This document shows positions 2,974 to 20,049 of a DNA stretch of 40,914 nt, piece after piece. Position 1 is the first letter of the stretch. Every line of letters starts with the position of its first letter. Source of the stretch: Bacteroidota bacterium (GTDB lineage Bacteria; Bacteroidota; Bacteroidia; Bacteroidales; VadinHA17); assembly GCA_030706785.1 (NCBI GenBank), contig JAUZNW010000010.1, positions 1-40,914 on the forward strand. Direction: 5' to 3'. Below the pieces are notes generated by a model. The model was not told where the DNA came from. It did no database searches and saw nothing but the letters and a program-made list of their open reading frames with translations. The translations under genes were made by a program, and so were the position numbers.

Positions 2974-4365
2974 TTATTTCATTTCTTTTTCAATTTGTTC
3001 CAGAGTCTTTCCTTTCGTTTCCGGAAGCTTTTTCAGGATGAACCAGAATCCCAGCACACATATCAACCCGTAAAGCCAGAACGTGCCTGAAACATGTAGC
3101 ATCCTGTTCAGAAGCGGGAAAGTGTAAGTAAGGACAAAGCACGCCCCCCACAGGGCGAAAGTCGCTACCGACATTGCTATACCCCTAACTCTGTTTGGGA
3201 ATATCTCTGAAAGAACGACCCATGTAACGGGAGCAAGCGACATTGCATAACAGGCAATTGCTATGACCACCATTGCCAGCAGTGGAAGACCATGCAGGTT
3301 AAGGAAATACATTAACCCTGCTATTGCGTAGATGCAGGCAAGTCCCCCTGCGCCAATCAGCATGAGGGCTTTCCTGCCGAGCCTGTCAACAGTGAACATT
3401 CCAACGAAGGTGAATATGAGGTTCACGCTCCCTGTGATTACAATATTGAAAAGGATATCCGTCACTGAATAGCCCGCATTGGCAAAGATCTCCTGTGCAT
3501 AGTTGAAGATCACATTGATCCCGCACCACTGCTGAAAAATTGCTATGACAATCCCGATTATCAGCACCTTCGAAACTGATGGTTCCCTCAGAATGCGGTA
3601 ATCTGCCCTGGTTTTCCCGGCAGTCAGCGTTTCCCTGATTGCCATGATCTCGGCATCCGCGTATTTAATTCCCCCTATCCTTGCAAGTATCCGGCGGCTC
3701 TTTGTCTCTTTCCCTTTATTCCTTGCGAGCCATCTCGGGCTTTCCGGAACAAGCCACATAAGCAGAAAGAAAAGGGAAGCAGGAATAGAGCAGGCATAGA
3801 ACATCCATCTCCAGCCCATCTGTCCGTTCCAGGAAAACAATATCTGATGTACCGTTGATCCCGGAGGAACAGGCTCGGCAATCCTCCAGTTGACAAGCTG
3901 AGCGACCAGTATGCCGATGACTATCGTCAGCTGGTTCAGCGAAACAAACCGGCCGCGAACACTGCCCGGGGTCACCTCTGCAATATAGACAGGCGAAAGA
4001 TTTGATGCCAGACCAATGCCGATTCCGCCAAGGATCCTGAAAAAAATAAATGATCCCAGGTGGTTTGCAGATCCTGTTCCTATCGATGCCACAATGAAAA
4101 GGCATGCAGCTATTATTAACGGCCTTTTTCGTCCGAACCGGTCGCTGAGCCATCCTGAAAAAGCAGCCCCGGCAAGGCAGCCGATCAGCGCACAGCTCAT
4201 AACCCAGCCCTGGAGGGAGGAATTGCCGGTGATCTGAAAATATGGCTCATAGAAAGGTTTTGCTCCGCCAATCACAACCCAGTCATATCCGAAAAGAAGC
4301 CCTCCCATGGCGGATATAAGCGAGATCCATAAAAGGTAGTTCCAGTTATAGTTTCGGGTATTCAT
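2974..4365 (-). CDS. MFS sugar porter (XylE/GalP-like sugar:proton symporter)
   Basis: A 463-residue, 12-helix inner-membrane transporter of the sugar porter family. Signature motifs are visible in order: FGYDWVVIGG in helix 1 (Asp28, the position of the proton-coupling Asp in XylE), RFGRKRP in the loop after helix 2, VPESPRWL after helix 6, GRKALM in the second half, and PETKGKTLEQIE at the C-terminus. It probably imports a pentose or hexose released by the neighbouring hydrolases. Given the xylanase nearby, xylose is a reasonable guess, but this is inference. It lies between the URO-D-family gene (172 nt upstream) and the GH2 gene (about 210 nt downstream), all on the minus strand. Confidence 0.9.
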   Translation of the reverse strand: MNTRNYNWNYLLWISLISAMGGLLFGYDWVVIGGAKPFYEPYFQITGNSSLQGWVMSCALIGCLAGAAFSGWLSDRFGRKRPLIIAACLFIVASIGTGSANHLGSFIFFRILGGIGIGLASNLSPVYIAEVTPGSVRGRFVSLNQLTIVIGILVAQLVNWRIAEPVPPGSTVHQILFSWNGQMGWRWMFYACSIPASLFFLLMWLVPESPRWLARNKGKETKSRRILARIGGIKYADAEIMAIRETLTAGKTRADYRILREPSVSKVLIIGIVIAIFQQWCGINVIFNYAQEIFANAGYSVTDILFNIVITGSVNLIFTFVGMFTVDRLGRKALMLIGAGGLACIYAIAGLMYFLNLHGLPLLAMVVIAIACYAMSLAPVTWVVLSEIFPNRVRGIAMSVATFALWGACFVLTYTFPLLNRMLHVSGTFWLYGLICVLGFWFILKKLPETKGKTLEQIEKEMK

Positions 4366-4437
4366 GTTTATAAGTTCTCACTATATCCTGTTATTCCGGG
4401 GCAGCTATTACCATAAACTCGAATGCTTTTTATTTTT

Positions 4438-4525
4438 TTAACCACTGAGGGCACTAAGTGACACGTAGTAACACAGCGATACTTGTTTGCTGTTCTCGCC
4501 GTGCACATCGTGTTCTCCGTGGTTA
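4438..4525. repeat. Imperfect inverted repeat (AACCAC...GTGGTT)
   Basis: The left arm AACCACTGAGGGCACTAAG and the inverted right arm AACCACGGAGAACACGATG are related. They flank about 40 nt and lie between two co-directional genes. The outer ends TAACCAC/GTGGTTA are perfect. It could be a small decayed mobile repeat or a structured spacer. Similar motifs occur at 2876 and 22886. Confidence 0.55.
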
Positions 4526-4537
4526 AATTTCTTTACC

Positions 4538-5791
4538 TCAGATCTCCTTCAAAGCCTCCAGCATTGCCACAACATTTTCGAAGGGGACGTTTGCCTGGAT
4601 ATTATGGATGGTATTAAAGACAAATCCTCCGTCCACATTTAAGATCCCGATCTGCCTCTTCACCTGGTCTTTAACCTGCTGAGGAGTACCGAACGCAAAA
4701 ACGCCCTGTGTATCAACCCCGCCTCCCCAGAACACTATCCTGTCACCGTATTTTTGTTTCAGATTCTTAGGATCCATGCCCGAGGCATTTATCTGAACCG
4801 GATTAATAATATCGAAACCCGATTCGATAAACAGGTCCATAAAGGTCTCAATTGCTCCGCATGAATGTTTGAAAGTCTTCCAGTTCGTATTCTTATGGAT
4901 CCAGTTGTTGACCTTTTTATAATATGGCATATATACCCTTGTGTATGTTTCAGGAGAGCAGAATGTGGAGTTCTGTGTTCCGAAGTCAGTGCCGCATATA
5001 TAAGCAACATCCAGCCTGTCACCTATAACAGTATGAAGTTTTGCGAGATTTTCGATGGCAATATCTGTTTCCCTGTCGAAGATTTCTTTTATGAAGTCCT
5101 CCCTTATCAGAGTTGAGATATACCAGTCAGCAACGCCCCTTATACCTTTCGGGTGCTTCAGATTCAGTCCTGGAACAAGAGCAATATCACCAAGCGCTGT
5201 ACCTCCGAGGGAAGCAACAGTGCCTTTGTCTGAATTTTCAGCCAGATCGGCCTGTTCTTTCCAGTACTCAAGATCATGATCGGTTACACGGGTGAACTCT
5301 TCAAGGTTATCTTCAACCTTAAGCTTTGAATCATCAATAGGTCCCTGTCTTTCCACAGCATCAAAGAAAAATCCGGTTTTAGGCATCATGGCTGCAGGAG
5401 GAACAGTTATATCTCCCTGCGGGTGGATCAGAAGATCACCATTATTATTAAATGTGCAGTTGAATTCACCTGGCAAAAGCACTTCCTGTCCCCAGAATGT
5501 ACGATTCAGCTTCCAGTCGCGGTTAGGGATCCCGAACATATTGCATTCCCCGGGAAGTCCTATTACATCCACACCCATTTCCCTGATCAGTTCCTCATCA
5601 ACCTCACCGAGCATCTGAAAAGGCTCGGTCACCCTGACCGGTTTCTTTTCAAGCCCGTAATATTCCCGCAGTTTTTCGACAATCCGGACATGAATGCCGG
5701 TAACTCCGGTCGAACCGAAATCCACCACTACTTTTTCTGGCTGTCTGTGATTGATTGTTTTCTTAAAATTTTCTTTTGAGGAAGATGCCAT
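4538..5791 (-). CDS. Uroporphyrinogen decarboxylase-family protein (putative corrinoid/methyl-transfer type)
   Basis: A 417-residue soluble protein of the URO-D/MtaA superfamily. The C-terminal half carries the H-x-C pair in FKHSCGAIETF (His309, Cys311) followed by SGFDIINPVQ, and FWGGGVDTQG. These are typical of methyltransferase-type members, where His and Cys bind zinc, and not of true HemE. True HemE is about 340-350 residues and starts differently. Members of this type often sit in carbohydrate loci of Bacteroidota; their reaction is largely undetermined. Here it heads the minus-strand arm, divergent from susC. Methyl transfer, for example from a methylated sugar, is a hypothesis only. 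Confidence 0.8.
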   Translation of the reverse strand: MASSSKENFKKTINHRQPEKVVVDFGSTGVTGIHVRIVEKLREYYGLEKKPVRVTEPFQMLGEVDEELIREMGVDVIGLPGECNMFGIPNRDWKLNRTFWGQEVLLPGEFNCTFNNNGDLLIHPQGDITVPPAAMMPKTGFFFDAVERQGPIDDSKLKVEDNLEEFTRVTDHDLEYWKEQADLAENSDKGTVASLGGTALGDIALVPGLNLKHPKGIRGVADWYISTLIREDFIKEIFDRETDIAIENLAKLHTVIGDRLDVAYICGTDFGTQNSTFCSPETYTRVYMPYYKKVNNWIHKNTNWKTFKHSCGAIETFMDLFIESGFDIINPVQINASGMDPKNLKQKYGDRIVFWGGGVDTQGVFAFGTPQQVKDQVKRQIGILNVDGGFVFNTIHNIQANVPFENVVAMLEALKEI

Positions 5792-5928
5792 ATTCAGACT
5801 GTTTCAGGTTTAATTATCTCCACATAAAGTTAATTTTTCTTTTTAATAAGGGTAACCCGTGAAGAGATATTCTTTTGTTCAGGATCCGATGTCATTTCCG
5901 AACAAAAATGCCGGTTAAAAAAAATTTA

Positions 5929-5944
5929 CTGCAATCGGTTGCAG
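5929..5944. promoter_or_regulatory. LacI-type operator palindrome CTGCAATCGGTTGCAG
   Basis: A 16-bp palindrome with perfect CTGCAA/TTGCAG arms and a central CG, the hallmark of LacI/GalR-family operators. Its right arm overlaps the putative -33 element of the susC promoter, a placement expected of a repressor site. No lacI-type gene is present in the window, so the regulator must be encoded elsewhere. Confidence 0.6.
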
Positions 5945-5968
5945 AAATCTAAAATAACCTTAAATTTG
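5939..5968 (+). promoter_or_regulatory. Putative susC promoter (TTG-N19-TAAATTTG)
   Basis: TTG at 5939-5941, 19 nt, then TAAATTTG at 5961-5968, matching the Bacteroidota -33/-7 consensus TAnnTTTG. Transcription would begin near 5975, giving a leader of about 180 nt before susC. The rest of the 364-nt gap (5792-6155) is AT-rich with no other gene seen. Confidence 0.6.
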
Positions 5969-6155
5969 GTAACAGGTTCTGACCTGACCTGATATTGTCA
6001 AAACTAGATTTTATTATGGACCGATTTGCTCAAATAACCTAAATCTTTCATGCCTATGATAAAAACTGATATTGATTAAATTCTCTCTCTGACTTATTCT
6101 GACAAATTATTTAAAGATCAAACTGTTTATTTTATTAACCCGTAAACCTTTAATT

Positions 6156-9100
6156 ATGGTAGAAAAACCCTCAGGAAGTATTTTACGGATAAAATACTTT
6201 ACAAAGATTATCCTGCCACTGAGTGCTTGTGCACTTTTTCTTTTGGCAGGTGTACCCAAAACCCAGGCTTCGGCTCCTTCCGATGTAAATTATGCGTCGG
6301 TCGAACAGCAAAAAGCAATCAAAGGCCGGGTTGCTGATGCAGCTGGTAATCCGCTACCGGGAGTTAACGTTGTTGAAAAAGGGACCATCAACGGAGTTGT
6401 GACGACCTCTGATGGGACGTTTGCACTTACTGTCTCATCCGCCAGGTCGGTTCTTTCCTTTTCCTTTGTAGGATATGTTACCCAGGATGTCACGGTAGGG
6501 GACCAGGTTACAATAAATGTAACCCTGGCAGAAACGGTCACAGGGCTGGAGGAAGTTGTGGTTATAGGATATGGTACTCAACGGAAAGAAGCTGTGACAG
6601 GTTCAGTTGCTTCAATTAGTGGAAATGTGTTGCGCGATGTGCCATCTGCTAATATCTCGCAGGCTTTGCAAGGAAGAGTATCAGGAGTGGAGTTGTCTCA
6701 AACCTCAACCAAGCCGGGCGCCACAATGCAAGTCCGAATTCGTGGCACACGCTCGCTGAATGCAAGCAACGACCCGCTGGTGGTCGTCGACGGTATCCCC
6801 TTTGCCGGGTCTATCAGCGACATCAATCCCAACGATATAAAGAGTCTGGATATCCTTAAGGATGCCTCGGCAACCGCCATTTACGGATCACGCGGCGCTA
6901 ACGGCGTTATATTGATAACAACCAACAAAGGACTGGTCGGGCAAAAAGCAAGGGTGACCTACAATGGTTATTATGGCTTTAAAAAGGTTTTTGCCCCTTA
7001 CCCAATGATGGACGGACCGGAATTTGTTGCTCTTCGTAAAGCACGAGGTCAATACACAAACGGTATTGATGAATCCGATGATGTAAATACCAATTGGCAA
7101 GACTTGTTTTACAGAACCGGCATGGTAACAAGCCACAATTTAGGCATTTCGGGTGGTACTGAAAAAGGCAACTACAGCTTCGGTGTGGGCTACGACCGCG
7201 ATGCTGCCGTAATACCTTTGCAGGACTTCAGCCGTTATACGATACGCGGTACTCTTGACCAGGGAGTAGGCAAATTTTTCCGCTTCGGCTTCACTTCAAA
7301 CAACAACTATTCCATTAATATGGGTAACAGCTTGGGGCTGTACGGTGTCTTAAGCAGTTCGCCTATTGCCAACCCATATAACGCTGACGGCACGTGGAAA
7401 AGAGTCATAAAGATGCCGTTGGATAATAATTGGGTGGAAACAAGAGAAACTGTTGAAGCTTTGGGCGATAAATGGATAGACCAGGCCAAGGCGTTTGGTT
7501 CCTACAACACTCTTTTTGGAGAGGTAAAAATTCCAGGCATAGAGGGCTTAAAGTATCGCGTCAACATTGGCTTGAACTTCCGCATGAGCAATGGTGGCAA
7601 CTACACAGGACAGGGGGTATTCAGTGACAATGCTGCTACAGTTTCAACTGCTTCTATCAGTAACTCGCTTACAACCAACTGGGCAATTGAAAACCTCCTG
7701 ACGTACGACCGAACATTTGGTAAACATCAAGTGAATATAGTCGGGTTGTACTCTGCCGAACAAAGCATGTACAACAGTTCGTATGTTGCAGCAAAGGATA
7801 TTCCCGCCGACGCTTTCCAATTCTACAATTTGGGGCGGGCTGCCGGTGAAATCACTATTAACCCTGATTACCAGGGCTATTCTGTGAGCGGCCTGATGTC
7901 GTGGATGGGACGAGTAATGTACTCATACGATAACCGCTATATGCTTACGGCTTCCATCCGCTCCGATGCCTCATCAAGACTGGCAGAGGGACATAAGTGG
8001 CATAACTATCCTGCCGTATCAGTTGGGTGGAATATCAAAAACGAATCGTTTATGAGGGATATCACCCCGATAAATATGTTGAAGCTGCGTGTGGGCTTTG
8101 GACAAACCTCCAACCAGGCCATTGCCTCCTACGCTACACTTGGAGGTTTAAGCACCAGACCTTACAACTTTGGAACTACGAACTCTGTGGGGTACTATGT
8201 ATCCCAACTTCCTAACACTTCTTTAGGATGGGAGTACTCTAAAACATGGAACTTTGGCCTGGACTTCGCAGTCCTGAATAATCGCCTGTCCGGTACCATA
8301 GAGTACTATGTATTGAATACCAAAGATATTCTGCTGAGTGTTAATCTGCCTGGTACATCGGGCGTAAGCAGCTACATGGCAAATATAGGGGAAACCCAGA
8401 ACAAAGGCCTGGAACTTACGCTCAATGGCGTGATATTGAACAACCTTAACGGCTTTACATGGGATGCCGGCATCAACGTGTATGCCAACCGCAACAAGCT
8501 GGTAGCGCTTGCTTCGGGACAAACGAGGGATGAATCAAACTGGTGGTTCGTAGGCTACCCCATTGATTGCATTTACGACTATGAGAAAATAGGACTATGG
8601 CAGGAGGGGGATGCGTACCTGACTACCTATGAACCAGGCGGAAATGCAGGTATGATTAAGGTGAAATATACCGGCGATTACAATGCAGATGGTTCTCCGG
8701 TAAGGCAAATTGGAGCCGCCGACAGGCAAATCCTGAGTGTAGAACCCAAATTTCAGGGTGGTTTCAACACCCGCCTGGCTTATAAAGGATTTGACCTGAG
8801 CGCTGTCGGCATGTTTAAACATGGCGGTCTCCTCATCAGCACCCTCTACTCGGCATCAGGCTACCTCAATTTGATGACTGGACGAAGGAATAACGTAAAG
8901 GTGGACTACTGGACAACGGAAAACACCGGTGCCAAGTATCCAAACCCTGCCGGCATAATAAGCGGCGACAATCCAAAGTATGGCTCTACATTGGGTTATT
9001 TCGATGCATCGTACCTGAAGATACGTATCATAACACTTGGTTATAACTTCGAAAATTTCAGCTGGATTAAAAACTCAAGTATTAGCCATATGCGGCTTTA

Positions 9101-15003: not shown

Positions 15004-15034
15004 TTGCATCAAATTAAAATAAAGAGTAATTTTG
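15004..15034 (+). promoter_or_regulatory. arsR1 promoter TTG-N20-TAATTTTG
   Basis: TTG at 15004-15006 and TAATTTTG at 15027-15034 match the Bacteroidota -33/-7 consensus exactly. The operator palindrome begins at the next base, covering the predicted transcription start. Confidence 0.7.
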
Positions 15035-15058: not shown

Positions 15059-15367
15059 ATGACTGAAAAAGAAAATCCGATTACAGATAATCAGGAGAAG
15101 ATCTCACGGTATGGAAAAGCACTTTCTAATCCGATTCGGGTTTTCATTCTTGAATATCTGGCAAATAATCTTAACAAAGCATGTTATAGCGGTGATATGG
15201 CTGAAATCCTGCCTATTGCCCGTTCCACCCTTTCTGAACACCTGAAAGAGTTAAAAAATGCAGGATTGATACAGGGTGAAATAAATCCACCATATATCAG
15301 GTACTGTATCAATCCTGAGAACTGGGAAGAAGCAAGACTTTTGTTGGCTAAATTCTTCAGGAAATAA
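15059..15367 (+). CDS. ArsR-family transcriptional repressor, first copy
   Basis: A winged-helix metalloid or metal sensor of about 102 residues. The ATG at 15059 is chosen because the only upstream in-frame alternative is a TTG inside the operator. The helix-turn-helix is clear: GDMAEILPIARSTLSEHLKE (about 45-64), followed by the wing LIQGEINPPYIRYCIN. Cysteines at 42 (KACYSG) and 83 (RYCIN) are candidates for arsenite contacts; the textbook ELCVCDL motif is absent, so the inducer cannot be named with certainty. TTTCGG-N6-CCGAAA palindromes precede both this gene and the next operon, indicating autoregulation and control of the arsC-hgcAB-acr3 genes. Confidence 0.88.
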   Translation: MTEKENPITDNQEKISRYGKALSNPIRVFILEYLANNLNKACYSGDMAEILPIARSTLSEHLKELKNAGLIQGEINPPYIRYCINPENWEEARLLLAKFFRK

Positions 15368-15401: not shown

Positions 15402-15478
15402 TGGCAAAAATGGAATAATATGGAAATTAAGATTTTAAGCACAGGCTGTGCATTCTCTTGATTAATAATTCATCAACC

Positions 15479-15889
15479 ATGACATTCTTAAAGCACGGTT
15501 TTGTTAGTTCAGGTTTTCTTAACCTCTCAGCCAGTGAGGCATATAAAGAGGCTACTGAGAATAATGCCATCATTTTGGACGTCCGGGAAGTGGGGCTAAT
15601 AGGATATAAGAGATTTGATGTTCCAGTTGTAGTCAATATCCCCAATAGCACACTTGCTCAGAATTATTTAAATCTACCTGTCGATGTCCCCATAATTGTC
15701 GCAGATTCAGTAGGATTGCGAAGTCATGAAGCCATGGTATTCCTTCAGAGTAAAGGTATTGCCAATATCGCAAACCTGGCTGGCGGTATCGTGGAATGGG
15801 AGCGTGACGGATTGCCAATTAAAAAAGATCTGACAGAACAGTTGGACGGTTCTTGCGTCTGCCAGTTAAAACCAAGACATAAAAATTAG
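15479..15889 (+). CDS. Rhodanese-like domain protein lacking the catalytic Cys, with C-x-C tail
   Basis: A 136-residue single rhodanese domain; the ATG at 15479 is used, and a TTG at 15458 would add seven residues. Fold motifs are present: IILDVRE (about 31-37), the active-site loop IIVADSVGLRSHEA, and NLAGGIVEWERDGLPI. Where active rhodaneses have Cys (as in VYCxSGxRS) this protein has Asp76, so sulfur transfer by the usual persulfide route is unlikely. The tail ends GSCVCQLKPRHKN, with Cys126 and Cys128 as a possible thiophilic metal site. It is the first gene after operator O2 and lies 26 nt before arsC. A role in metalloid or mercury binding or delivery is inference. Confidence 0.8.
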   Translation: MTFLKHGFVSSGFLNLSASEAYKEATENNAIILDVREVGLIGYKRFDVPVVVNIPNSTLAQNYLNLPVDVPIIVADSVGLRSHEAMVFLQSKGIANIANLAGGIVEWERDGLPIKKDLTEQLDGSCVCQLKPRHKN

Positions 15890-15915: not shown

Positions 15916-16344
15916 ATGAAAGTGTTAATTCTTTGTACTGGTAACAGTTGCCGTAGCCAAATGGCTCAAGGTTTCTTACAATCATTCGATAAGAATATCA
16001 CGGTCTGCTCGGCTGGGACAAATCCCTCAGGTAAAGTCAATGAGAAAGCTATTTCTGTAATGAAAGAGGTTGGCATAGATATCAGTCACCATAAACCAAA
16101 ATCAGTCGGGATGTATCTTGGTGAAGTATGGGACTATGTAATTACTGTCTGCGATGATGCATATGAAACCTGTCCGTTCTTCTCTGGTAAAGTGAAACAT
16201 CGTATTCATCTTGGATTTAAAGATCCGGCTAAAATCCAGGGAACTGAGGAATTTATTTTAAGTGAATTCAGAAAGATAAGGGATAGCATCAAAAAGGAAT
16301 TCATGACGCTCTATCAAAATGTCCTTTCTCAAAATGAAACATAA
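15916..16344 (+). CDS. arsC: Arsenate reductase, thioredoxin-coupled, low-molecular-weight phosphatase type
   Basis: A 142-residue protein reducing arsenate to arsenite in the cytoplasm, using thioredoxin. The P-loop CTGNSCRS is at Cys7-Ser14. The two redox cysteines are at 79 and 86 in VCDDAYETCPFF; their 7-residue spacing equals the Cys82/Cys89 pair of the classical thioredoxin-type ArsC. DP in GFKDPAKIQG supplies the general-acid Asp. All catalytic residues are therefore present, and it is an arsenate reductase and not a tyrosine phosphatase. The 3' end overlaps the start of hgcA by 26 nt (or 11 nt with the downstream ATG), so the two are probably translationally coupled. Confidence 0.93.
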   Translation: MKVLILCTGNSCRSQMAQGFLQSFDKNITVCSAGTNPSGKVNEKAISVMKEVGIDISHHKPKSVGMYLGEVWDYVITVCDDAYETCPFFSGKVKHRIHLGFKDPAKIQGTEEFILSEFRKIRDSIKKEFMTLYQNVLSQNET

Positions 16345-17365
16345 ATATATTATCGGTTCAATTCAGGCAGGCGAAACAGCTGTAAATAATGTCTCCACAA
16401 AACTTGGATTATCTGATTACCTGGGTGCAGTCATAGTCAGGTGGGGAATCAACAGGAATAACTACAAGGTTAATCCCGGTCTCTATTCCGTTGGCAGTCC
16501 GGATAATACATCAGATGTATTTGTTACAGCCAATTATAAGTTATCCTTTGACCATCTCAGGAAGAATCTCAATGGAATTGACGGCTGGATACTTGTGCTG
16601 GATACAAAAGGAGTAAATGTATGGTGTGCTGCCGGGAAAGGAACGTTCGGGACTGATGAACTCAATGACAGGATTAAGAGAGTTTCGCTCGATAAAGTTG
16701 TATCTCACAGGAGAATTATCCTTCCCCAGCTGGGAGCTACTGGTGTGGCAGCACATAGAATAAAAGATGGATCAGGTTTTAACGTCAAGTATGGCCCTGT
16801 CAGGGCTGCCGATATCAAGGAATTTCTGAATTCAGGATACCAGGCAACCGGAGAGATGAGAAAAGTCAATTTCAGATTCTGGGACCGGATAAAGCTTATC
16901 CCGAATGATTTTATGTATGGAAAGTTTTATTTGATTGGTGCACTCTTCGTGATATTCCTTTTATCTTCATTTCATATCGGACAGTTTTCTCCCGTGACTT
17001 CAATGAATCGGGGTTTAACAAGGATGTTTAACGTTTTTGCTGCCTATTTCTCGGGAATTGTAATCACACCGGCGCTCCTGCCATATATCCCTGTCAGAAG
17101 GTTTTACTTAAAAGGCTTTATTACTGGTGCTCTCACTGTGATAATTTTGTTCTTATTAAATAAAACAGGGAGTGACATCTTTGAAAAGATTTCCTGGTTT
17201 TTCATTATACCGGCTGTTTCTTCATTTATGGCTATGAATTTTACGGGATCTTCAACATTTACCTCATTATCCGGCGTTAAAAAAGAAATGAAAACAGCTG
17301 TCCCCTTTCAGATTCTGTTTTTATCTGTGGGTTTGATACTTTTTATAACAGGATTATTCATTTAA
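16319..17365 (+). CDS. hgcA: HgcA, corrinoid membrane protein for mercury methylation
   Basis: A 348-residue protein that, with HgcB, converts Hg(II) to methylmercury. The defining cap-helix motif NVWCAAGK is intact (Asn100-Lys107), with Cys103, the lower ligand to the cobalamin cobalt. Flanking sequence is also characteristic: GLYSVGSP, VTANYKLSFDHLR, LVLDTKGVNVWCAAGKGTFG. From about 200 onward there are about five transmembrane helices, including the conserved NFTGSSTFTSLSGVKKEM. Length is normal. Start: ATG at 16319 or in-frame ATG at 16334; both overlap arsC, and neither has a good ribosome site, consistent with coupling. hgcB follows after 7 nt. Not a CODH/ACS subunit: that family is soluble and lacks this motif and tail. 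Confidence 0.95.
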   Translation: MSFLKMKHKYIIGSIQAGETAVNNVSTKLGLSDYLGAVIVRWGINRNNYKVNPGLYSVGSPDNTSDVFVTANYKLSFDHLRKNLNGIDGWILVLDTKGVNVWCAAGKGTFGTDELNDRIKRVSLDKVVSHRRIILPQLGATGVAAHRIKDGSGFNVKYGPVRAADIKEFLNSGYQATGEMRKVNFRFWDRIKLIPNDFMYGKFYLIGALFVIFLLSSFHIGQFSPVTSMNRGLTRMFNVFAAYFSGIVITPALLPYIPVRRFYLKGFITGALTVIILFLLNKTGSDIFEKISWFFIIPAVSSFMAMNFTGSSTFTSLSGVKKEMKTAVPFQILFLSVGLILFITGLFI

Positions 17366-17372
17366 AATTGAC

Positions 17373-17678
17373 ATGCAAATGAAAGATTTGGTCTATCTGC
17401 CGGATGTTGTTACTCTTCAATTATGCGAATCAACCTGTAATTGTTGCGGAATGTGTGTTATAGTCTGTCCAAGGGAAGTATTTGAACTTTCCGGGGGGAA
17501 AGCAAGAATTATAAACCGCGATTATTGCATGGAATGCGGTGCTTGTGCACTTAACTGTAAGCCTGGCGCTATTACCGTCAGGTCAGGTGTGGGGTGTGCA
17601 GCCGGAATAATCAGCGGAATTCTTAATAACACAGAGCCAACATGCGGATGCTCAGATAATAAATCAAATTGCTGTTAA
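17373..17678 (+). CDS. hgcB: HgcB, 2[4Fe-4S] ferredoxin partner of HgcA
   Basis: A 101-residue ferredoxin, the second protein essential for mercury methylation; it is thought to reduce the HgcA corrinoid and pass Hg. Two cluster motifs are complete: Cys22/25/28/32 (CNCCGMCVIVCP) and Cys52/55/58/62 (CMECGACALNC). The extra conserved Cys75 in SGVGCA and the vicinal C-terminal pair Cys100-Cys101 match HgcB-specific features; an additional CGC (91-93) is also present. An alternative ATG lies two codons downstream (17379). It sits 7 nt after hgcA and 12 nt before acr3, so it belongs to the same transcript. Confidence 0.94.
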   Translation: MQMKDLVYLPDVVTLQLCESTCNCCGMCVIVCPREVFELSGGKARIINRDYCMECGACALNCKPGAITVRSGVGCAAGIISGILNNTEPTCGCSDNKSNCC

Positions 17679-17690
17679 TAATCAATAAAT

Positions 17691-18743
17691 ATGACAAGAC
17701 TTTCATTTTTTGACCGCTACCTTACTTTATGGATCTTTCTTGTAATGTTTGCAGGAGTAATTATCGGGTATTTTCAACCCGGGATCTCAGATTTCTGGAA
17801 TTCACTCAGTTCAGGGACTACTAATATTCCTATTGCGGTTGGACTTATCCTGATGATGTATCCGCCTTTGGCAAAAGTAAAATATGAAAAACTTCCTTTG
17901 GTTTTTAAAAATGTGAGGTTGCTTTCTTTGTCGCTCACTCAGAACTGGATAACTGGTCCAATTGTAATGTTTCTGCTCGCAATGCTTTTCCTCCATAATC
18001 ATCCCGGTCTGATGACCGGGGTTATCCTCGTTGGGCTTGCCCGTTGTATTGCCATGGTCCTTGTGTGGAACGACCTGGCAAAAGGAGACACTGAGCTGGC
18101 AGCAGGACTGGTAGCTTTTAATGCATTATTCCAGGTGTTTCTTTACTCGGTTTATGCCTATGTTTTTATCACTTTGCTTCCTCCCATTTTTGGACTCAGT
18201 GGATCAATCGTCAAAGTTTCAATATCTCAAATAGCAAAAACAGTATTAATCTATCTTGGTATTCCTTTCTTTACGGGTTTAATTACCAATGTTGTATACC
18301 GGAAGTTTTCTGGTGACGAAGCATATTATGGCAAATACATCCCAAAAGTTTCCTGGTTAACCCCTGTTGCACTGCTATTTACGATATTTGTCATGTTCTC
18401 ACTCAAAGGAGAAAAAATAATCGAATTGCCACTGGATGTACTGAGAGTAGCAATACCTTATACAATCTATTTCGGACTTATGTTCTTTTCAACGTTTTTC
18501 ATTTCAAAATGGATAAATCAGGGGTACGAAAGATCGGCAACACTTGCTTTCACAGCCGGAAGCAATGACTTTGAACTGGCTATTGCTGTAGCAGTGGCTG
18601 TGTTCGGGATTAATTCCCAGGCAGCATTTGCAACCGTTATAGGGCCACTTGTTGAAGTACCCGTTCTGATTATGCTGGTAAATGTAGCTCTCTATTTCAA
18701 ACGAAGATATTTTGCTTTAAAAGGAGATTCTCTAACCACATAA
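17691..18743 (+). CDS. acr3: ACR3-family arsenite efflux transporter
   Basis: A 350-residue inner-membrane carrier with about ten helices that exports arsenite by proton exchange. The family signature [19 protein letters not shown] contains the essential Cys119. The second conserved region, [18 protein letters not shown], carries the conserved Glu, followed by [12 protein letters not shown]. Length is typical of the bacterial ACR3(1/2) group. It follows hgcB by only 12 nt and is probably the last gene of the arsC-hgcA-hgcB-acr3 unit; arsR2 downstream has its own promoter. With ArsC it makes a complete arsenate detoxification pair. Confidence 0.94.
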
Positions 18744-18814: not shown

Positions 18815-18840
18815 TATTTATATAAATACATTTTTATATG
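18803..18840. promoter_or_regulatory. 38-bp near-perfect palindrome, candidate ArsR2 operator
   Basis: Centre TGTATTTATATAAATACA (18813-18830) is an 18-bp perfect palindrome. It is flanked symmetrically by CATATAAA (18803-18810) and TTTATATG (18833-18840); only two pairs mismatch in 38 bp. It overlaps the -7 box, covers the transcription start, and its last three bases are the arsR2 start codon. Confidence 0.75.
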
Positions 18841-19185
18841 AATGATCTTAAGAAACTTCAACTGATCTTTCAGACTTTATCCGACTATAACAGGTTGGGA
18901 ATGATAAGATTCATCTGTGAAAAAGAAAGATCAGTCGGAGAGATCGTAAAAGAAACAAAACTGTCACAGCCGCTAGTTTCACATCACCTGAGAGTCCTGA
19001 AAGAAAGTGGTATTCTTGAAACCAAACGTAACGGACCATTCATAATTTACTATATAAAAGATAAGAAAATCCTTGATGCTATCAATCTGATTTTAGAAAT
19101 TTTCAAGGATTCTGATATAAAAGATAACACAGGTTCAAAATTCTGTTCTGGCTGGATAATTGGTAATTACAATACTAAAAAATAG
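18838..19185 (+). CDS. ArsR/SmtB-family transcriptional repressor, second copy
   Basis: A 115-residue winged-helix sensor unlike arsR1. The family pattern is clear: LSDYNRLGMIRFICEKERSV at the N-terminus, then recognition helix KETKLSQPLVSHHLRVLKES, then the wing ILETKRNGPFIIYYI. Possible metal ligands are Cys27 and a C-terminal Cys in SKFCSGW. The start codon is embedded in a 38-bp palindrome, which predicts tight autorepression. It is followed after 11 nt by the Met-rich protein gene, probably co-transcribed. The inducer (As, Hg, Cd or other) cannot be decided from sequence. Confidence 0.88.
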   Translation: MNDLKKLQLIFQTLSDYNRLGMIRFICEKERSVGEIVKETKLSQPLVSHHLRVLKESGILETKRNGPFIIYYIKDKKILDAINLILEIFKDSDIKDNTGSKFCSGWIIGNYNTKK

Positions 19186-19190
19186 GAGGG
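19184..19190 (+). promoter_or_regulatory. Strong Shine-Dalgarno AGGAGGG
   Basis: An unusually strong ribosome binding site for a Bacteroidota gene, 6 nt before the ATG of the Met-rich protein. Most starts in the window have weak or no such motif; the other strong one is at the cupin gene. Confidence 0.6.
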
Positions 19191-19196
19191 AAAAAA

Positions 19197-19706
19197 ATGG
19201 GTATTAAAGAAAAATTCATGAACGACATGATGGAAAATCAATTTAAAAACATGTCATCAGAAGAAAAGAGGCAAATGATGGAAGCTATGATGGATAAGTT
19301 CTTTTCATCGATGACGGATGACGAAAAGAAAGATATAATGTCAGGTATGATGGGCAAAATGATGGGTAATAACCCAATGATGGGCATGATGTCAATGATG
19401 ATGGGCAGGAAAGGTAAAGATTCCGGGAAGAGCAGTGAAAGCAGTAAAATGCCATGGGATATGTGCTGTGATATGATGAGCGGAATAAAGGAAACTGCAA
19501 ATACTGCCAGATTTGCCACTTCAGAACTGAGAGGATTATTTGATGAATGGTGTCAGCAGATTGAGAAAGAAATGTTGGATTTTATAAAAGAAAAAGGAAC
19601 AATAAAAGTCGATGAAATGGCTGAAAAATTCGGTATTTCAGAGGAAAGTGTAAAGTATTTGTTAAGTCGGCTGGCCAATAAGAATTTAATAGATTATAAA
19701 GTATAA
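19197..19706 (+). CDS. Methionine-rich protein with C-terminal winged-helix-like domain
   Basis: A 169-residue soluble protein of no recognised family. The N-terminal half is very rich in Met: pairs and triplets run through about 1-70, including NPMMGMMSMMMG, resembling soft-metal-binding Met clusters. A middle motif PWDMCCDMMSG carries adjacent cysteines. After a helical linker, the last ~50 residues look like a helix-turn-helix: DFIKEKGTIKVDEMAEKFGI, then SEESVKYLLSRLANKNLID. Together this suggests a thiophilic metal-binding protein with a DNA-binding or protein-interaction domain, controlled by arsR2. That role is inference; no signal peptide is present, so it would act in the cytoplasm. 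Confidence 0.75.
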   Translation: MGIKEKFMNDMMENQFKNMSSEEKRQMMEAMMDKFFSSMTDDEKKDIMSGMMGKMMGNNPMMGMMSMMMGRKGKDSGKSSESSKMPWDMCCDMMSGIKETANTARFATSELRGLFDEWCQQIEKEMLDFIKEKGTIKVDEMAEKFGISEESVKYLLSRLANKNLIDYKV

Positions 19707-19734: not shown

Positions 19735-20049
19735 ATGAGTAAAGTGAAAATCAGGCCATTTAATGTTATCGATCATACTGATCTGCCTGAAATAAAATTG
19801 GATCGGATTCCTGTTGATGGAGATCCCCTTGAGATTGACAGGGAAATGTACTATGTATGTGAAACGAATTTCCTGGAGAATGATGATAAGAAGATCGGGG
19901 TAATACCTCTGGTCGTCAAAAATCCTTCGAAGGTAGCCAATATTGAGAGCTATATAAATTGTTTGTCAATTGCTCATCGAAGAGTACAGTTCAGGAAGGA
20001 GAAAAATATTTGTGATTTCAATGATTGTGATGAAATGGTAATATCCTAG
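19735..20049 (+). CDS. Hypothetical protein, 104 residues
   Basis: Not recognised. A small soluble acidic/basic protein with no membrane helix; three cysteines are spread through it (VCETNF, INCLSI, ICDFNDCDEM gives two more near the end). The last, C-x4-C, could bind metal, but this is weak. It starts with a good ATG 29 nt after the Met-rich gene on the same strand, so it is probably the last gene of the arsR2 transcript. The following 116 nt to the convergent CDF-like gene contain no clear feature. Confidence 0.55.
   Translation: MSKVKIRPFNVIDHTDLPEIKLDRIPVDGDPLEIDREMYYVCETNFLENDDKKIGVIPLVVKNPSKVANIESYINCLSIAHRRVQFRKEKNICDFNDCDEMVIS

Follow-up and report, generated by a model that had tools for sequence, protein, structure and literature searches.

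How did a pair of mercury-methylation genes come to lie within an arsenic-resistance operon, and would that position place methylmercury formation under arsenic control? The question is raised by a 40,914-nucleotide (nt) contig of a Bacteroidales bacterium of the family VadinHA17 (JAUZNW010000010.1, assembly GCA_030706785.1; hereafter the window), in which hgcA and hgcB stand between the arsenate reductase gene arsC and the arsenite permease gene acr3. The answer that we favour with reasonable confidence is that hgcAB replaced arsM in a resident ArsR-controlled operon, probably making the capacity for methylmercury formation arsenic-inducible. All four genes are on the + strand; arsC and hgcA overlap by 26 nt, and gaps of 7 and 12 nt separate hgcA from hgcB and hgcB from acr3. 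These positions and junctions were recovered as a preliminary description of the contig had given them, and the open reading frame (ORF) coordinates bear out the tight, co-directional packing of hgcAB between arsC and acr3 that it reported. An alternative hgcA start (ATG 16334) would reduce the arsC/hgcA overlap to 11 nt. The unit extends to the left beyond arsC, taking in arsR1 and a rhodanese gene from approximately position 15027 (Table 1).

Identity of the genes and content of the slot

By the family models, the window hgcA and hgcB are genuine mercury-methylation genes, as the preliminary description had proposed. HgcA scored 433.5 bits with NF040863 (cutoff 275) over model positions 1-324 of 325, a span that takes in the C-terminal membrane domain of about five helices expected of HgcA, whereas the CODH/ACS gamma subunit model NF003195 gave 75.9 bits against a cutoff of 306, and that alternative identity was ruled out. 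HgcA contained NVWCAAGK, an instance of N(V/I)WCA(A/S)GK, which we take to be the HgcA cap-helix motif; C103 was invariant across 12 aligned sequences, and relatives in the PDB covered only residues ~49-172. HgcB scored 103.9 bits with NF040864 (cutoff 99). In its alignment the expected features were present (CX2CX2CX3C twice, i.e., two 4Fe-4S motifs, the cysteine of GVGCA and a terminal CC), with a small correction to the earlier account: the second 4Fe-4S motif is followed by K, whereas relatives carry P, Q or another residue there. Acr3 scored 411.6 bits with TIGR00832 (cutoff 282.8). ArsC reached 123.9 bits with TIGR02691, under the cutoff of 174.3, and its alignment to Bacillus subtilis ArsC (1jl3) had three cysteines in place, presumably the catalytic ones.

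Matches to hgcA over the cutoff were found in 17 of the 117 family genomes (the window's included), 16 of them in the window's genus, and in 2 of 395 genomes drawn from the phylum, one of the two being the window's own. Among the 17 hgcA genomes, arsC lay directly upstream in 13 (incomplete in G042), acr3 came next after hgcB in 13, and both held in 11. The survey of the arsC-hgcAB-acr3 order suggested in the preliminary description thus yielded ten further family genomes with the same order, and this recurrence argues that the arrangement is not due to chance. No arsC or acr3 was found beside hgcAB in G045 (locus L052) and G069 (L038). In G070, hgcA was truncated and the end of an hgcB followed it, and in G068, outside the 17, only fragments of hgcA, hgcB and acr3 were present, after arsR-arsC. 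Truncated or fragmentary hgcAB copies that still adjoin arsC were observed in L041 and L042, and these copies suggest that hgcAB may have been lost in some members of the genus.

The position between arsC and acr3 was then compared across the family. Of 56 family loci examined, 39 contained a collinear arsC-acr3 pair; the other 17 yielded no pair by script, among them L167, which has arsM between arsC and acr3, with arsM and arsC read as one ORF. The 39 pairs enclosed arsM in 20 cases, hgcAB in 11 and neither in 8 (gaps of -3 to 749 nt); no pair enclosed both. The three slot proteins tested, from L164, L174 and L170, were ArsM (NF008823, 302-330 bits, cutoff 263). Judged by gene content, the slot is shared by arsM and hgcAB. 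The 38 hgcAB-less ars loci used for comparison were a selected subset of the matches, and three of them came from genomes with hgcA elsewhere (G000, G031 and G045). At the level of whole genomes, arsM over the cutoff was found in 34 of 117, comprising none of the 17 with hgcA and 34 of the 100 others (Fisher p 0.003, kinship ignored).

The family arsM operons (e.g., L161, L163-L169, L170, L171, L174 and L199) share the arsC-slot-acr3 order with the window and differ from it in carrying arsM for hgcAB and, often, a divergent arsR. L170 and L171, which belong to a different genus of the family, read rhodanese-arsC-arsM-acr3, which is the window's gene order with arsM replacing hgcAB, and their Acr3 proteins belong to the window's clade, as do those of L161 and L163-L169. 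L174 and L199 resemble the window in arsR1 and in operator type. No single family arsM operon was close to the window in all parts.

Gene trees and operator-like palindromes

The two sides of the proposed exchange gave conflicting trees. In the HgcA tree, for which 31 of 32 rows were kept (rows of 250 amino acids (aa) or less were dropped), the window fell inside a 16-row family HgcA clade (98/97); this phylogeny had been suggested in the preliminary description. In the Acr3 tree, with 49 of 52 rows kept (three rows of 220 aa or less dropped), hgcAB-linked and hgcAB-less rows were interleaved, with at least 9 label changes, 7 of them forced by starred branches. The window Acr3 belonged to a 16-row clade (100/100) whose other members were 14 hgcAB-less rows and a single hgcAB row, L068 from Paludibacter, so that a second hgcAB operon has an Acr3 of this type. 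A single clade of the window and the 12 other Acr3 rows of the family that are linked to hgcAB was rejected by 394 log-likelihood units (p-AU 1e-54). Because the HgcA and Acr3 trees conflict, hgcAB and acr3 in the window have, on this phylogenetic evidence, different recent histories. Pairwise comparisons gave 83-88% identity of the window Acr3 to eight hgcA-less genomes of the genus and 62-65% to hgcAB-linked Acr3 of the genus. The window arsR1 product was 84% and 79% identical to those of the hgcAB-less loci L174 and L199, and the rhodanese was 79%, 64% and 62% identical to the arsC-adjacent rhodanese of L174, L171 and L170, respectively.

The operator pattern, a palindrome that in operator 1 has a CG-N8-CG core, was located at two places in the window, one ahead of arsR1 and one between it and the rhodanese gene (four strand matches with at most two mismatches; 0.10 expected). 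With at most one mismatch, the operator pattern occurred at one other place in the 3.65-Mb genome, on contig C233 (one mismatch), in the coding end of an 824-aa ORF on the opposite strand. The hgcAB-less locus L174 had an exact match before arsR1 and a related palindrome after it, and the arsM operon L199 had a one-mismatch site at the arsR1 start and a weaker, two-mismatch site immediately after arsR1, between arsR1 and arsC, which reproduces the window's layout. Tandem AACGTATnTATACGTC-like sites were found in family operons with another ArsR subtype, and TTCGTAATTTTGCGAA-like sites in arsM operons with divergent arsR. Among 47 hgcAB loci with upstream arsR, listed by hand, the CG-N8-CG palindrome lay near the arsR start in 22 (shuffle mean 0.35, maximum 3). 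We infer from these patterns that ArsR subtypes with matched putative operators drive these ars operons, and that the window's regulator and putative operators came with the ars operon rather than with hgcAB.

By identity, tree position and motif, arsR1, the rhodanese gene, acr3 and the operator-like sites of the window match types seen in hgcAB-less operons, and the window hgcAB is that of the family HgcA clade. The trees and operators thus lend support to the capture of hgcAB into an ars operon that the preliminary description had proposed. We read the locus as an arsenic-detoxification operon of the order arsR1, rhodanese, arsC, slot and acr3, the slot, often filled by arsM in the family, now holding hgcAB. 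Homologous recombination via the shared arsC and acr3 flanks would be a plausible route of the exchange, through which hgcAB would have joined an existing ArsR regulon. ArsR1 would repress the unit until trivalent arsenic, or another thiol-seeking metal, relieved the repression; ArsC would then reduce arsenate, Acr3 would export arsenite, and HgcA (as methyl-corrinoid protein) with HgcB (as electron donor) would methylate Hg(II). The capacity for methylmercury formation would thereby be switched on by arsenic. Arsenic co-regulation of the window unit is likely, and HgcAB could conceivably take part in arsenic chemistry. To the earlier suggestions that methylation may belong to a general metalloid defence, or that arsenic pollution may drive mercury methylation, the sequence contributes no more than a common position and common putative operators.

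Linkage beyond the family and rival explanations

A scan of a collection holding one genome per species (84,980 species) confirmed at least 543 stretches encoding a relative of the query, of which the best 80, leaning towards Bacteroidota-like HgcA, were used as named loci. The full survey covered 91 loci, left out L041-L045 (truncated, fragmentary or weak HgcA matches), used a clean ArsC model and scored acr3, arsC and arsM but not ArsB, ArsA or further ars genes. At least one of the three genes lay on the same strand within ~4 kb in 35 of the 91 loci, in 25 of the best 80 of 543, and in 14 of the 40 among those 80 that had full flanks. Counted by distance from hgcA over the 91 loci, same-strand acr3 and arsC genes numbered 52 within 1.5 kb, followed by 3, 0 and 2 per 1.5-kb bin, and this fall-off is an internal control against chance. 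The order arsR-arsC-hgcAB-acr3 was found in Bacteroidota and, with one or two extra genes, in Ignavibacteriota. In Bacillota and one Chloroflexi record, arsR-hgcAB precedes acr3, arsC or both; two unclassified records have acr3-hgcAB, and one Margulisbacteria record has hgcAB-arsC-acr3. An ars-linked hgcAB is also present in the cultured Acetivibrio mesophilus (locus L103), with arsC downstream of hgcB. On an HgcA tree of 90 of the 91 rows (250 aa or less dropped), ars linkage required at least 11 changes, 6 of them forced by starred branches; as this was a quick tree, its branch support is rough.

Additional proteins were observed in several of these loci. In L062, a single ORF (471-1865) that lies upstream of hgcAB-acr3 encodes ArsC and ArsM domains fused together. 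Small Cys-rich and transporter-like proteins lie between arsC/arsM and hgcA in L062, L066, L067 and L127; in L127, where they were tested, the transporter-like protein gave a weak DsbD/ArsG match and the small Cys-rich protein gave none. The Paludibacter operon L068 carries an ArsP-type permease (PF03773) and thioredoxin-like ORFs between arsR and arsC (4075-6494).

The interleaved gene order, called striking in the preliminary description, proved to have been published. The available passages of McDaniel et al. 2020 (PMC7438021) describe several putative methylators with hgcAB between or beside acr3 and arsC, arsM and ArsR-like genes near hgcAB in diverse putative methylators, a thioredoxin-dependent arsenate reductase in more than half of the putative methylators, and Bacteroidetes with the highest hgcA transcripts in thawing fen samples. 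Their loci resemble the window in having hgcAB adjoin acr3 and arsC, with arsR or arsM nearby; beyond those passages, the window adds the proposed slot exchange, the HgcA/Acr3 tree conflict and the putative operators. Passages of PMC10349881 cite confirmed arsenic-responsive ArsR control of hgcAB in Pseudodesulfovibrio mercurii ND132 (Gionfriddo et al. 2023, also cited in passages of PMC12953829 and PMC13362967). Like the window, ND132 has an ArsR-like gene upstream of hgcAB, and the response of hgcAB transcription to arsenic described for ND132 is predicted for the window as well. Unlike in ND132 as cited there, arsC and acr3 flank hgcAB in the window, and the regulator belongs to an ArsR type seen in Bacteroidales ars loci that lack hgcAB. 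From these passages of PMC7438021 and PMC10349881, the bare hgcAB-ars arrangement was therefore already known. According to PMC12953829, almost every methylator genome from one site carries arsenic genes, and PMC13362967 reports high arsenic alongside high hgcA abundance. No description of an arsM-hgcAB exchange was found in the titles and abstract openings of the open-licence papers matched by the literature searches, and the exchange of one metal-methylating unit (arsM) for another (hgcAB) looks new.

Several observations weigh against the exchange as we propose it. The window is a single contig, and its assembly comprises 299 contigs and has a contamination of 6.5%. The best partners differ by gene, namely L174 for arsR1 and rhodanese and L161-L163 for acr3; the L174 Acr3 is just 65% identical to that of the window and belongs to the other Acr3 clade, and arsR1 lies ~3 kb upstream of the rhodanese gene in both L174 and L171. 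For these reasons the window operon may be a multi-part mosaic, and its history may include more than one exchange. The ArsC tree (54 of 80 rows kept, 110-200 aa) failed to place the window row, which leaves the left breakpoint unfixed; most of its dropped rows were arsM, matched via a model containing the fused L062 ORF, and one arsM fragment taken for ArsC was included (L181, end branch 10). Label changes on the trees do not tell gain apart from loss, and the CG-N8-CG palindrome was not found in 25 of the 47 hgcAB loci with upstream arsR. The kinship-corrected sign test for arsM and hgcAB gave a median p of 0.125 (0.25 within the family), shorter ArsM-like matches under the cutoff occurred in 5 of the 17 hgcA genomes, and arsM and hgcAB occur together in L062 and L127, outside the family. 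Because of these three results, strict arsM-hgcAB exclusion is weakened to a suggestive pattern that is not significant after kinship correction, and slot sharing stands. In the available passages of PMC10349881, an ars-associated gene was present in 4 of 35 selected contigs and arsR in none, and according to those of PMC12953829, arsR genes were not near hgcAB.

Other histories of the operon were also considered. If hgcAB had stayed unmoved in an old family ars-hgcAB operon, the flanking acr3, arsR and rhodanese genes would have been replaced from hgcAB-less operons. Such a course fits the arsC-hgcAB-acr3 order in 11 of 17 family hgcA genomes with HgcA as one clade, the unplaced ArsC row, and the different genomes that provide the best partners of arsR1/rhodanese and acr3. 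However, it demands that both flanks of hgcAB, together with the operators, were replaced, whereas one slot exchange suffices from an operon of the L170/L171 kind; several other hgcAB-linked Acr3 rows also stand among hgcAB-less rows. We regard it as unlikely. A chimeric assembly that joined two related populations at the junctions is highly improbable, given clean junctions with open frames under either hgcA start (26- or 11-nt overlap, 7- and 12-nt gaps), the identical gene order in ten other family genomes and the Acr3 of L068 in the window's clade, although the fragmented, partly contaminated assembly and the different nearest kin of the operon parts speak for it.

The remaining alternatives concern function. 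The hgcAB pair could be a passenger whose co-transcription with ars genes has no role. Genus members with hgcAB apart from arsC and acr3 (L052 and L038) and the truncated or fragmentary copies in L041 and L042 are consistent with this, but the association recurs across several phyla in differing gene orders and falls off beyond 1.5 kb, and we hold a passenger role to be rather unlikely, if worth keeping in view. A further alternative is that HgcAB, when in the slot, replaces ArsM by a corrinoid-dependent reaction on arsenic or another metalloid, with mercury methylation as a side reaction. The pair occupies the arsM position between arsenate reduction and arsenite export, and none of the 117 family genomes had both hgcA and arsM over the cutoff. 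Against it stand the loss of significance once kinship is corrected for, the coexistence of the two in L062 and L127, and the 26 of 40 full-flank named loci (from the best 80 of 543) that lacked nearby arsC, acr3 and arsM, in a survey in which other ars genes were not sought; we consider this alternative improbable. It is equally doubtful that family ars operons have an interchangeable metal-methylation slot taken by either ArsM (S-adenosylmethionine-dependent) or HgcAB (corrinoid-dependent), in which HgcAB would stand in for ArsM physiologically, for instance by methylating arsenite or by producing an arsenic-induced methylated-metal weapon, and methylmercury would be one product.

What hgcAB natively does would become directly testable if the pair repeatedly replaces arsM in ArsR-controlled operons. 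In that case, the expression of hgcAB in uncultured Bacteroidales could depend on arsenic as well as on mercury, sulfide or carbon supply.

Features of the window

The predicted parts of the unit and the regulator gene that follows it are collected in Table 1. The -7-like box was assigned by TAnnTTTG, which we take to be the Bacteroidota -7 box consensus. ATG 15059 is the likely start of arsR1; the ORF as listed begins at TTG 15032.

Table 1. Positions and supporting evidence of the arsR1-acr3 unit and the adjacent regulator gene
Feature	Position	Strand	Evidence
-7-like box TAATTTTG	15027..15034	+	matches Bacteroidota TAnnTTTG; abuts operator 1; function predicted from sequence
operator 1 (putative ArsR site) TTTCGGGAATTTCCGAAA	15035..15052	+	palindrome, CG-N8-CG core
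arsR1, ArsR-family repressor	15059..15367	+	PF01022, E 2.7e-10
operator 2 (putative) TTTCGGACATTCCCGAAA	15384..15401	+	between arsR1 and rhodanese gene
rhodanese-domain protein	15458..15889	+	PF00581, E 1.6e-9; alternative start ATG 15479
arsC, thioredoxin-type arsenate reductase	15916..16344	+	family models; alignment to 1jl3
hgcA, corrinoid protein of mercury methylation	16319..17365	+	NF040863; family HgcA clade
hgcB, 2[4Fe-4S] ferredoxin of mercury methylation	17373..17678	+	NF040864; alignment
acr3, arsenite efflux permease	17691..18743	+	TIGR00832
second ArsR/SmtB-type regulator	18838..19185	+	NF045707, 80.9 bits (cutoff 115); NF033788, 71.8 bits (cutoff 55)

Scans for sigma-70 promoters (18 matches against 16.8 expected) and terminators (3 against 3.7) were at chance level. 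A 104-aa protein encoded at 19735-20049 had no Pfam or NCBIfam match, and its counterpart lies directly after acr3 in L050 and L051; a link of this protein to hgcAB operons was rejected, as it occurred in 14 of the 117 family genomes and at the hgcAB locus in 3 of the 14. The second ArsR/SmtB-type regulator probably belongs to a neighbouring unit. In that region (18838-19706), the regulator resembles TsoR (the sub-cutoff NF045707 match) and is followed by a Met-rich protein with a weak likeness to the selenoprotein TsoA (53.4 bits against a cutoff of 170).

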